From NCBI GenBank assembly GCA_019689635.1, contig JADGHB010000006.1, positions 1-64,000 of the forward strand: a stretch of 64,000 nt of DNA. The letters are read 5' to 3'. Shown piece after piece: positions 1 through 4,016 of this stretch (within the stretch, counting starts at the first letter, position 1; each line of letters opens with the position of its first letter). The notes under the pieces were generated by a model. That model did not search any database and had not been told where the DNA came from. It worked only from the letters and a program-made list of their open reading frames with translations. This DNA is from Nevskia sp. Its GTDB lineage: Bacteria > Pseudomonadota > Gammaproteobacteria > Nevskiales > Nevskiaceae. The position numbers and the translations under genes were made by a program.

Positions 1-841
1 CGGCCGGTCGGGCCGCGCCCAGTCCTCCATTTCGAAGACGTCGGCGGCGTAGCCGCCGAGACGGCCGCGTTCGAGCGCTTCGAGCACCGCCGCTTCGTCC
101 ACCAGCGAACCGCGCGAAGGGTTGATGAGCAGGCAGCCGGGCTTGATGCGCGACAGCGCCCGCGCATCGATGACCTGCGTGGTCTGCGGCGTGAGCGGTG
201 CGGCCAGCACCAGGTAGTCGGCCCACTCCAGCAGCGCTTCCAGCGCGGCCACGCGCGTGAGTCCGAGCGCGCGCTCTTCGTGCGCCGCGAGCGCGACGGG
301 GTCGCAGTAGCGCTGCTGCACGCCGAAGGCTCGCAGCCGTTCGGCGACGGCGCGGCCGATCACGCCCATGCCGAAGTAACCCACGTTACGGCCGGCCAGC
401 CCCACGCCGTAGAAGCGCGGCTGCCAGCCGCGGAAACGACCCGAGCGCACCCAGCGGTCGCCGGCGAGCAGGTGCCGGCCGAGCCCGATCATCAGCGCGA
501 TGGTCAGCTCCGCCGTGGGCACGGTCAGCAGGTCCGGGACCAGGCTGAACCAGACGCCGCGCCGCGTGCAGGCCTCGAGATCGAAGTTGTCGGCACCCTT
601 GAGCGCGCCGGCGATGAGTTTCAGCCGCGGGCAGGCGGCCAGCAGTGCGGCGTCCGCCGCATCCGGCATGAACGCCATCCAAGGCGTCGGCTCGGGCCAG
701 CGCGCGGCGCAGGCGCGCCGGCGGCAGCGCCTCGCGGTCGCGCGGCGCCGTCACGCTGGCGTACGGTTCCAGCAGCGCCAGCGTGTCGTCGAACACACGG
801 TGGGAGATGACGACGCGCGGCTGCGTGGAACTCGAGTTCAT
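1..841 (-). pseudogene. ptxD: Phosphite dehydrogenase (NAD:phosphite oxidoreductase), 3' end outside window, frameshifted
   Basis: PtxD oxidises phosphite to phosphate with NAD+. The ATG at 841 overlaps the ptxC stop by 4 bases (ATGA). The first ~53 residues (RVVISHRVFDDTLALL) resemble the PtxD N-terminus. At 679-680 one extra G shifts the frame. From the ATG at 678 the second frame stays open for 226 codons to base 1 and continues the family: [22 protein letters not shown], the Rossmann motif GMGVIG, NPSRGS with the conserved Arg, and DVFEMEDW with the conserved Glu. The catalytic His lies beyond the window. The rest is intact, so this is either a very recent inactivation, a sequencing error, or re-initiation at the in-frame ATG 678. 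D-2-hydroxyacid dehydrogenase family membership is certain. The PtxD assignment also rests on the ptxABC-like transporter beside it. Confidence 0.8.
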
Positions 842-2223
842 GCCGGGATCTGGTTGAGTTTGTAACGCCGGCGCAGCGCCTCGCTCGCGTTGTCGACGAG
901 GGCCACGAGCACCCAGGTGATGAGGATGTAGGCCATCATCTGGCGGTAGAAGAACAGTTGCTGGGCGTCATAGAGCGCCTGTCCGATGCCGCCGGCGCCG
1001 ATCAGTCCCATGACGGTGGCCATGCGCAGATTCCACTCCAGGCGGAACAGCGAGTGCACCGCCACCGGTCCCAGCGCCAGCGGCACGGTCGCCCAGGCGG
1101 TGACGACGACGGCCGAGGCGCCGGTGCCGGCGATGGCCAGTTGCGGCGCACGCGGCGCGTTTTCCAGCGACTCGGCGAACAGGCGCGCCAGGCAGCCGGC
1201 CGAGTGCAGTCCCAGCGCCGCCGCGCCCGCGGTCGGCCCGACGCCGGCCACGGCGATTAAGATCAGCCCCCACACCACTTCCGGGATCGAACGCAGCACT
1301 TCCATCAGGCGCCGCAGCGGCCAGGCCAGCCACGGCGGCGCGAGATTGCGCGCCGTCAGCGCGCCGAACAACGCAGCGGCGAGCACGGCCCCGCCGGTGC
1401 CGGCCAGCGCCATCCATGCCGTCTCCCACAGCCGCGGCAGCAGCGCGGCCCAGTCGCGCTCGGTCAAGCGCGGCGGAAACATCTCGCCGAACACGTGCAG
1501 GGCATGGTCGAACGCCAGCAGTCGCGGCGCGTAGGCTGCGAGCGCGGCGAGGCCCAGCGGCGCCAGCGCCAGCAGCCAGCGCGGATGCCGGCGCAGCCAA
1601 ACGGCGAGCTGATCGAGCACGGCCACCACCGTTACCAGCACGATGAGCTGCGTGGTGACGCGCGGGAAATCCAGCGCCGCCAGCGATCCCACCAGCTCGC
1701 TGCCGAGTCCGCCGCCGCCCACCGCGCCGACCACGATGGACGCGCGCAGCGCGCTCTCGAATTCGTAGGCGCCGTAAGTGAGCAGATCCGCGCGCTTGAG
1801 CGGTAGCAGACCGAACAGCGCGAGCTGCAGGCGCCTGGCGCCGGTGGCGGCCAGCGCCTCCAGCGGTGGGCGGGGCGCAGTGCGCAGGATGTCGGCGAAC
1901 ATCTTGGCCACCACCGCGCCGTAGTAGATCGCCAGCGCCAGCAATCCGGCGCCGGGGCCGACGCCGAACAGGATCACGCACAGGATCGCGACCGTGAGAT
2001 CGGGAATGGCGCGCACCGCGGACAACACCGCCAGCAACGGTCGCGTGCCGGGCAGCCGCAGGCCCGCGGCGATCCCCAGCGGCAGGCTGATGAGGAACGC
2101 CAGAAACATCGACCCGGCGGCCAGCCCCAGCGTTTCCACCACCGGCGGTAGCAGGGCGCGCAGGTACGACGGCGTGAGGACCGGCGGAAAGAACGCGCTC
2201 AGCAGAGGCCAGAGCGAATCCAT
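838..2223 (-). CDS. ptxC: Phosphite/phosphonate ABC transporter permease, fused double PhnE domain
   Basis: Inner-membrane permease of an ABC importer for phosphite or a related reduced phosphorus compound. The 461-residue protein holds two binding-protein-dependent permease domains in tandem: roughly residues 1-210 (RAIPDLTVAILCVILFG, then VGAVGGGGLGSELVG) and 235-455 (RSIPEVVWGLILIAV, then GLIGAGGIGQALYD). Each has its own membrane helices and a G-rich EAA-type loop. PhnE/PtxC proteins are usually single-domain (~270 residues), so one chain here probably supplies both halves of the channel. It starts 12 bases after ptxA and overlaps ptxD by 4 bases, so translation with the dehydrogenase is likely coupled. 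Confidence 0.88.
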   Translation of the reverse strand: MDSLWPLLSAFFPPVLTPSYLRALLPPVVETLGLAAGSMFLAFLISLPLGIAAGLRLPGTRPLLAVLSAVRAIPDLTVAILCVILFGVGPGAGLLALAIYYGAVVAKMFADILRTAPRPPLEALAATGARRLQLALFGLLPLKRADLLTYGAYEFESALRASIVVGAVGGGGLGSELVGSLAALDFPRVTTQLIVLVTVVAVLDQLAVWLRRHPRWLLALAPLGLAALAAYAPRLLAFDHALHVFGEMFPPRLTERDWAALLPRLWETAWMALAGTGGAVLAAALFGALTARNLAPPWLAWPLRRLMEVLRSIPEVVWGLILIAVAGVGPTAGAAALGLHSAGCLARLFAESLENAPRAPQLAIAGTGASAVVVTAWATVPLALGPVAVHSLFRLEWNLRMATVMGLIGAGGIGQALYDAQQLFFYRQMMAYILITWVLVALVDNASEALRRRYKLNQIPA

Positions 2224-2235
2224 CGACGGCGTCGC

Positions 2236-3012
2236 TCAGGCGGTGAGCCGCAGAGGCTGCGCTGCGTGCACCGCGGCGCTGCCGGTGAGGGTGCCTTCGC
2301 GGACCTCGAGGACACGGTCGAAATAGCGCGTCGCGAGCTCCGGTTGATGCAGCGAGCAGATCAGCGCCATGCCCCGTCGTTTGGCCAGCGACGTCAGCAA
2401 TTCGAGGATCGCACGGGCGGTCACGGGGTCCAGCGAGGCCACCGGCTCGTCGGCCAGCAGCAGGCGCGGCGCCTGCACCAGTGCGCGGGCGATGGCCACG
2501 CGCTGTTGCTCGCCGCCCGACAAGGCCGCGGTCGGTGCGCGCAGCTTGTGCGCCAGACCCACGGCCTCAAGCGCACTGCGCGCCTCGGCCAGCTCGGCCG
2601 AGGTCGGCCGGCACAAGTAGCGCAGCGCGCGCAGCGTGCTCCAGCGGCCCAGCGCGCCGGCCATGACGTTCTGGTGCACGCGCAAGGGTTCGACGAGATC
2701 GTGTTTCTGAGCCACGAAGCCCACCCGGCTGCGCAGGCGGCGCAGCGCCTTGCCGCGCAATGCCGTGAGCCATTCACCGTCGAGCTCGATCGTGCCGGCG
2801 ACGGCGGCGATCTGTCCGCCGAGAGTGCGCAGCAGCGTGGTCTTGCCCGTGCCGCTGGCGCCCACCAGCGCCAGGCACTCGCCCGCACCGACGTCCAGCG
2901 CGATGTCGCGCAGCACGGGTTTGGCGGCACCCAGCGGTGCCACCGCCAGATCGCGCAGCGTCAGCAAGGACCGGCTTGCCGCGCGAACGGCGTCGCCGCG
3001 GGGCTCGATCAT
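2236..3012 (-). CDS. ptxA: Phosphite/phosphonate ABC transporter ATP-binding protein
   Basis: Cytoplasmic ATPase (258 residues) powering the ptx importer. It shows Walker A GASGTGKTTLL, the signature LSGGEQQRVAIARAL, Walker B LLLADEPVASLD and an H-loop SLHQPELA, the standard order of the PhnC/PtxA class. The ATG at 3012 overlaps the TAA of ptxB by one base (TAATG) and ptxC follows 12 bases downstream, so binding protein, ATPase, permease and dehydrogenase form one transcription unit. PhnC of phosphonate systems would look alike. The phosphite assignment comes from the ptxD-type gene at the end of the operon. Confidence 0.9.
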   Translation of the reverse strand: MIEPRGDAVRAASRSLLTLRDLAVAPLGAAKPVLRDIALDVGAGECLALVGASGTGKTTLLRTLGGQIAAVAGTIELDGEWLTALRGKALRRLRSRVGFVAQKHDLVEPLRVHQNVMAGALGRWSTLRALRYLCRPTSAELAEARSALEAVGLAHKLRAPTAALSGGEQQRVAIARALVQAPRLLLADEPVASLDPVTARAILELLTSLAKRRGMALICSLHQPELATRYFDRVLEVREGTLTGSAAVHAAQPLRLTA

Positions 3013-3863
3013 TACAGCAGCCCCAGTTCCTTGCCGACCTTGCGGACGTCGTCGTACTCGGCGTCGTCGGCTTTCACGTAATGCTCGCCGCGCAGGATCT
3101 CGAGGATCGCGTCATCGCGCCCGGGCTGCAGGCGCAGCAGCGCGGCCGAGAACTTCTCTTGCAGCGCCGGCGAGAGATCCTTGCGTGCCGCCCACACGTA
3201 GTCGGCGAACGGCGGCGTGGTGAAGAACACGCGCATCGACTCGCCGGGGATCTTGCCGTCGGCCACCATGGACTTGAAGACCGTTTCGTCCAGCGAGCCG
3301 GCGTCGCACACGCCCGCTGCCACAGCCTGCGCGGTCGCGGCGTGGCTGCCGGTGTAGCGCGTGGACTTGAGATCGGCATCCACGGAGATGCCGGCCTGCT
3401 TCATCGCCAGATACGGAAACAGGTGGCCGCTCGTGGAGTTGATGTCGCCGAAGCAGAACGTCTTGCCCTTGAGATCGGCGAGCGATTTGATGCCGGTGGC
3501 CTTGCGCGTGATGAACAGCGCTTGGAACTGTTGGTCCACGTCGCGCTGCACCAGCGGCACGGCGCCGTAGCGTTCGTGCGCCTTGACGTAGGTCAGGCCG
3601 CCGAAATACGCGATGTCCAGCGAGCCGTTGCCGAGCCCCTCGACGGTGGCGTTGTAGCTCGTGGGGATGACGAGCTTCACCGGCATGCCCATCTGCTGTT
3701 CGAGATATTTCTGCAGCGGCGCTTTCTGTTCCACGGACACCTGGGTGGCGCCGGCGTCGGGGATCATGCCCACGCGCAGCGGTTCGGCGGCTGCGGCGTT
3801 TTCGATGGTGAGCAAGAAACACAGGGCAGCGACCGCACGGGCGGCCGGGCTCGAGTTGAACAT
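3012..3863 (-). CDS. ptxB: Phosphite/phosphonate ABC transporter periplasmic substrate-binding protein
   Basis: Periplasmic receptor (283 residues) of the PhnD/PtxB family. The ATG at 3863 follows an AAGGAG at 3871-3876, and a signal peptide ending near AAAAEPLRV follows. An upstream in-frame start would add an unrelated Arg-rich extension and is rejected. Typical features are VGMIPDAGATQV at the mature N-terminus, VIPTSYNATVEGL, the segment AYFGGLTYVKAHERYG and the phosphate-pocket-type SGHLFPYLAMKQAG. It is the first gene of the ptxBACD unit. About 200 bases separate it from xthA, room for a regulated promoter. The ligand could be phosphite, hypophosphite or a phosphonate. Confidence 0.88.
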   Translation of the reverse strand: MFNSSPAARAVAALCFLLTIENAAAAEPLRVGMIPDAGATQVSVEQKAPLQKYLEQQMGMPVKLVIPTSYNATVEGLGNGSLDIAYFGGLTYVKAHERYGAVPLVQRDVDQQFQALFITRKATGIKSLADLKGKTFCFGDINSTSGHLFPYLAMKQAGISVDADLKSTRYTGSHAATAQAVAAGVCDAGSLDETVFKSMVADGKIPGESMRVFFTTPPFADYVWAARKDLSPALQEKFSAALLRLQPGRDDAILEILRGEHYVKADDAEYDDVRKVGKELGLL

Positions 3864-3998
3864 GGAAATACTCCTTCCGAAAGCGACCGGATGTCTGAGT
3901 GGCGTGACATTGCAGAACCGAATATCGCTCGTGCGTTCATCGCAAAAACGAATGGCCCGCACGCTAACGCGGCTGCATGACGCCCGGATGGCGCGCCG

Positions 3999-4016
3999 AT
4001 GAAATCCGGATGACAT
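3999..4016 (-). promoter_or_regulatory. Pho-box-like direct repeat upstream of ptxB
   Basis: Read on the minus strand the site is ATGTCAT-CCGG-ATTTCAT, two 7-mers separated by 4 bases. It matches the PhoB consensus CTGTCAT-N4-CTGTCAT at 11 of 14 positions. It lies about 135-150 bases before the ptxB start codon. Phosphite uptake operons are commonly phosphate-starvation controlled, so PhoB binding is plausible. I cannot place a convincing -10 element after it and the match was found by eye. Confidence 0.35.

Follow-up and report, generated by a model that had tools for sequence, protein, structure and literature searches.

The first 4,016 positions of a 64,000-nucleotide stretch of DNA from a Nevskia species (referred to below as "the window") hold a compact group of genes that the earlier note had read as a phosphite uptake and oxidation operon, ptxBACD. 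The question raised by this locus is whether these genes encode the import and oxidation of phosphite and, if so, whether the importer is the known PtxABC transporter. Base 1 of the window is the end of contig C64, and the last gene of the group is cut off there.

Gene layout and its continuation on a second contig

Reading of the sequence placed four genes (binding protein, ATPase, permease and dehydrogenase) on the minus strand of the window between positions 1 and 4016. These and the associated features are as follows:

3871..3878, minus strand: Shine-Dalgarno sequence GGAAGGAG preceding the ATG at 3863, assigned from the sequence
3012..3863, minus strand: ptxB-type periplasmic binding protein, 283 aa with signal peptide
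2236..3012, minus strand: ptxA-type ABC ATPase, 258 aa
838..2223, minus strand: ptxC-type permease, 461 aa, two fused PhnE permease domains
1..841, minus strand: ptxD phosphite dehydrogenase, cut at PtxD residue 274 by the contig end
681..682, no strand given: one-base frameshift in ptxD, located by comparison with the homologous stretch of locus L016
1..60: identity to G000:C33:17416-17475, linking the operon with the LysR gene and the C-terminal part of ptxD
C33:16355-17233, minus strand, outside the window: ptxE, LysR gene

When the sequence was re-read, the single-strand cluster with 1-, 12- and 4-base junctions proved exact. The stop codon of the binding protein gene overlaps the start codon of the ATPase gene by one base (TAATG), a gap of 12 bases separates the ATPase gene from the permease gene, and the permease and dehydrogenase genes overlap by four bases (ATGA). 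The coordinates also bear out a gene order that begins with the binding protein rather than the ATPase. The open reading frame of the binding protein extends back to position 4016, and its probable start is the ATG at 3863, which follows GGAAGGAG and stands ahead of a predicted signal peptide. An exonuclease III-like gene (xthA, 4929-4063; named by reading its translation) lies upstream in the same direction.

A search of the Nevskia genome revealed a piece of the same ptxD gene at the end of another contig, C33. Over its first 60 bases the window matches C33:17416-17475 exactly; the last 50 bases of C33 (G000:C33:17476-17525) then depart from C64 in a region where ptxD is conserved, which points to a contig end of poor quality. 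C33 supplies the missing C-terminus of PtxD (...TPHLGSAVTEVRR...), including the catalytic His292, together with a gene for a LysR-family regulator that overlaps the end of ptxD by ATGA. The encoded protein, which carries the Pfam domains HTH_1 and LysR_substrate and is 38% identical to its homologue in Burkholderia vietnamiensis G4, is PtxE by both its family and the position of its gene. The full order is B-A-C-D-E, with a tail resembling that of ptxABCDE. Past ptxE, the contig continues with an HD-domain gene, ggt, coaD and rsmD (names again from reading translations), and this region is ordinary chromosome.

As assembled, ptxD is frameshifted: after about 53 N-terminal codons the frame changes by one base near 681-682, as judged against the Caulobacterales homologue (L016). 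The frame after the shift is open for 226 codons in the window and about 60 more on C33, and intact homologues exist in L016 and in the B. vietnamiensis locus (L104). Probably the frameshift either was introduced during assembly or arose very recently; if real, it should be recent, since all of the checked active-site positions downstream have been kept.

The dehydrogenase and an importer apart from PtxABC

The PtxD-like nature proposed for the dehydrogenase was borne out by two comparisons. In the PDB, PtxD (4E5K and relatives) matched the fragment at 293 bits, whereas the best match outside PtxD, a glyoxylate reductase, reached 146 bits. In a tree with other D-2-hydroxyacid dehydrogenases, it fell within PtxD as sister to the Caulobacterales PtxD of L016 (100/98), and the Nevskia genome's own enzymes of this family stood well apart. 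The catalytic triad of PtxD, Arg237, Glu266 and His292, has been named previously (PMC10127272). Active-site residues K76, W134, Y139, R237 and E266 are encoded in the window and H292, S295 and R301 on C33, and the protein is PtxD-like at all 11 positions checked (M53, K76, L100, T104, W134, Y139, R237, E266, H292, S295 and R301). The genome's other dehydrogenase shares only W134 and the triad among these positions and lacks the PtxD-specific K76, Y139, S295 and R301. For the positions other than the triad, the roles are those that we take them to have in PtxD, and the Asp found at position 175 presumably favors NAD over NADP. To judge from the PDB match, the tree and these residues, the dehydrogenase is a true PtxD.

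The ATPase matches PF00005 and a PhnC-type NCBIfam model and is 68% identical to the B. vietnamiensis G4 homologue. The permease gene described in the earlier note is present, but its product is not a single permease domain: both TIGR01097 (PhnE, 351 bits) and PF00528 match it in two stretches, giving two PhnE domains within 461 aa. In a tree, the two halves form separate clades, each common to the five genomes in which this transporter type was found (see below), so the fusion is older than the split of the five lineages. No relative of the permease was detected in the viral contigs searched.

The binding protein belongs to PF12974 (227 bits), and its PDB scores to PtxB (5O2J, 140 bits) and PhnD1 (7S6G, 138 bits) are close. 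Its AlphaFold model (pLDDT 88) likewise has PhnD1 and PtxB as its best PDB folds, with 5LQ8 as the top match, and the fold search matches the two about equally without separating them. In the binding protein tree, the five variants form one clade (100) apart from that of canonical PtxB (98), and they group toward the NCBIfam putative selenate transporters (TIGR04553), not PtxB. The score against TIGR04553 was 231 bits for the window protein and 214-239 bits for all five variants, compared with 168 for canonical PtxB, 306 and 379 for genuine members, and a cut-off of 250 bits. Designation of the transporter as ptxBAC in the canonical PtxABC sense was not sustained, as the binding protein and the permease form a lineage of their own, in which the permease is a fused double and the order is B-A-C, in place of a single-domain permease and the order A-B-C. 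By these sequence comparisons, the transporter is not orthologous to PtxABC.

Bisson et al. (PMC5700983) reported that phosphite in Te_PtxB is contacted by Y55, Y100, S130, T131, S132 and H160 under a Y208/D22 cap, and that in Pm_PhnD it is contacted by Y46, S126, T127, S128, H158 and D205 under a Y206/D13/N176 cap, with F90 in place of Te_PtxB Y100. The predicted pocket of the window protein (D36, Y70, F113, S143, T144, S145, H174, D221 and Y222) keeps every contact and cap residue of phosphite-bound Pm_PhnD except N176 (PMC5700983), the equivalent of which is Asp192, an Asp in all five variants. It holds the oxygen-ligand residues and the capping Tyr with its Asp that are seen in phosphite-binding PtxB and PhnD, in the PhnD1 version, in which Phe and Asp replace Tyr100; the His-to-Phe change of HtxB is absent from the window protein. 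Marine picocyanobacterial PhnD1 (PDB 5LQ5, 7S6G) has the same Phe and Asp-Tyr pair around phosphite at only about 29-33% identity to the window protein, and the PhnDCE systems of these organisms mostly occur without ptxD (PMC10284923). Phosphite is not the only ligand of PhnD1-type proteins, which bind phosphate and methylphosphonate as well (PMC10284923). Most of the pocket residues recur in proteins of the putative selenate clade, so the pocket, though suited to phosphite, is no proof that phosphite is the ligand.

In two putative selenate transporters of TIGR04553 (L106:2484-5780 and L136:3251-6898), the Asp-Tyr cap is present along with most residues of the phosphite pocket. As selenite is pyramidal like phosphite, the TIGR04553 family might carry selenite.

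Distribution and relation to known systems

Among 80 PtxD loci surveyed from named genomes, most have the canonical A-B-C-D(-E) arrangement with a permease of about 275 aa, and only two share the gene order and double permease of the window (B-A-CC-D): L016, from a Caulobacterales MAG (70% identity to the window in the binding protein, 64% in the ATPase and 69% in the permease), and L082, from an Acidobacteriota MAG. A fourth copy is on plasmid pBVIE02 of B. vietnamiensis G4 (L104), annotated as a phosphonate transporter and phosphonate dehydrogenase, and a fifth is in a second Acidobacteriota genome (G1096). The fused permease type adjoins ptxD in all five genomes. PtxD-bearing relatives of the window's genome (G048 and G071) have a canonical operon instead. 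A simple search found no motif, LysR-box or other, common to the five operons upstream of ptxB.

The fused-permease variant is rare in the samples tested. The binding protein was detected in one of 369 genomes of the window's class, only the window's own, and among 146 relatives no full-length permease was found besides the window's own. For the class of the Caulobacterales MAG, the count was one in 385 (the starting MAG itself), and the Acidobacteriota sample gave two in 297, one of them in addition to the starting genome.

The five PtxDs do not form one clade, a single clade being rejected with a p-AU of 0.0013, a value to be read with caution because long rows are present and the group had been picked after a first quick tree. 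In particular, the G4 PtxD groups with that of L081, whose operon is canonical (100/99). These results suggest that the pairing of this transporter with ptxD is not just the shared descent of one block and that, as the transporters form a clade while the PtxDs are split, at least two PtxD lineages have come to stand beside the same transporter.

The G4 operon (CP000618, Bcep1808_7215-7210) has the same B-A-CC-D-E layout as the window, with identities of 79% for the binding protein, 68% for the ATPase and 75% for the permease. Its PtxD is about 54-57% identical to that of the window and lies on a different branch, beside one from a canonical operon. An integrase/transposase gene stands between its ptxD and ptxE (L104:12066-13121), and the unit is flanked by Tn3 transposases on a conjugative plasmid; the G4 copy is thus mobile and partly interrupted. 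In the Nevskia genome, by contrast, a mobile element was considered and rejected: no transposase was recognized on either flank, and the GC content of the operon is unremarkable, similar to that of its surroundings.

The canonical ptxABCDE operon (Pseudomonas stutzeri type; for example, L014 on P. aeruginosa pPA942-IMP45) provides the same functions, its PtxD is about 56-60% identical to that of the window, and in both a LysR gene overlaps the end of ptxD. It differs in its A-B-C order, its single-domain permease of about 275 aa and its PtxB, which belongs to another clade and has Tyr, not Phe, at Te_PtxB position 100. The nearest family model for the binding protein, TIGR04553, includes a Sphaerotilus system (pSna507_unt10); permeases can be fused in these systems too, as in the window. 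However, the Sphaerotilus binding protein is only 38% identical to that of the window, which scores under the family cut-off, and its system adjoins mnmH and selD whereas that of the window adjoins ptxD.

Other arrangements were noted in the survey: two tandem ptxD genes after ptxABC in a Nitrospirae MAG (L040:4814-6846); alphaproteobacterial ptxD genes without a recognizable adjoining ptxABC (L037, L051, L084 and L087); and a distant htx-like binding protein-permease-ATPase set directly upstream of ptxD or ptx genes (L022-L024:3117-5831 and L081:491-3102).

Proposed function, alternatives and significance

We consider it very probable, from the genes and their relationships, that this operon takes up phosphite through an ABC importer of a second, rarely found lineage and oxidizes it for assimilation. 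Phosphite would be captured by the binding protein in the periplasm and imported at the expense of ATP by the fused double permease and its single ATPase; PtxD would then use NAD+ to oxidize it, yielding NADH and phosphate for growth, and PtxE probably regulates the unit. That the transporter carries phosphite, that PtxE is the regulator and that the organism lives on phosphite are what we infer; growth on phosphite in particular is reasonable to expect, though less so given the frameshift in the assembly. Also to be counted against this reading are the C64-C33 join, which depends on 60 identical bases, and TIGR04553 being the top-scoring model for five of five binding proteins, though below its cut-off.

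The last point leads to an alternative that we consider unlikely, namely that the transporter imports a selenium (or other) oxyanion and merely lies beside ptxD. TIGR04553 outscores the phosphite/phosphonate model in the five variants, the variant clade is on the putative selenate side of the tree, and in Sphaerotilus a genuine TIGR04553 system, its permease fused, does occur between mnmH and selD. However, all five variants remain below a cut-off that real members clear, all five permeases adjoin ptxD, and the neighbors in Nevskia are ptxD and ptxE, not selD or mnmH, with overlapping junctions that suggest co-translation. Moreover, neither PhnJ nor a SelD over the cut-off was found in the 98.5%-complete Nevskia genome, so that this transporter would have no home in phosphonate use by C-P lyase or in selenium use that depends on SelD.

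It is fairly unlikely that the operon is decaying, with ptxD a pseudogene in this population and phosphite no longer used. The one-base shift after about 53 codons is what such decay might look like; yet the long open frame beyond it, the retention of every checked active-site residue, the intact state of the remaining genes and the location of ptxD at a contig end, a place prone to error in a fragmented draft assembly, all argue otherwise. Dissimilatory oxidation, with phosphite as an energy source, seems very improbable. PtxD is common to both modes (PMC11933879), but here an ABC importer and a LysR regulator accompany it, as in assimilatory operons, and no ptd-like genes (ptdCFGHI) were recognized on the operon flanks (the xthA side and the HD-domain, ggt, coaD and rsmD side). 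As for a glyoxylate, glycerate or 2-ketogluconate reductase, generic NCBIfam models do match the dehydrogenase at 100-160 bits, but these scores are far under the cut-offs, and the twofold higher bit score to PtxD, the position in the tree and the PtxD-specific residues rule it out for practical purposes.

Phosphite operons are well known, the G4 copy is already in public records, and its PtxD has been included in a published alignment (PMC10473253). In the open literature (subscription papers aside, and with the "hybrid" group of PMC5700983 not compared by sequence), we found no account of a phosphite transporter other than PtxABC that has a fused permease and is linked to ptxD. On balance, we favor the view that assimilatory phosphite uptake here involves a second, independently derived importer lineage (binding protein plus fused double permease) that is closer to selenium-type transporters than to PtxABC, has moved between at least two phyla and has joined different PtxD lineages; surveys using ptxABC markers would then miss or misname it. 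Environmental phosphite surveys use ptxA, ptxB and ptxC to mark import, and in some of them ptxD is reported where these genes are lacking (PMC11933879). A non-orthologous phosphite importer, if true, would explain some of these cases and would alter what ptxB can be taken to say about when phosphite uptake arose and how it spread. It would also offer a natural comparison for how this family of binding proteins tells phosphite from selenite-like and phosphate ligands.
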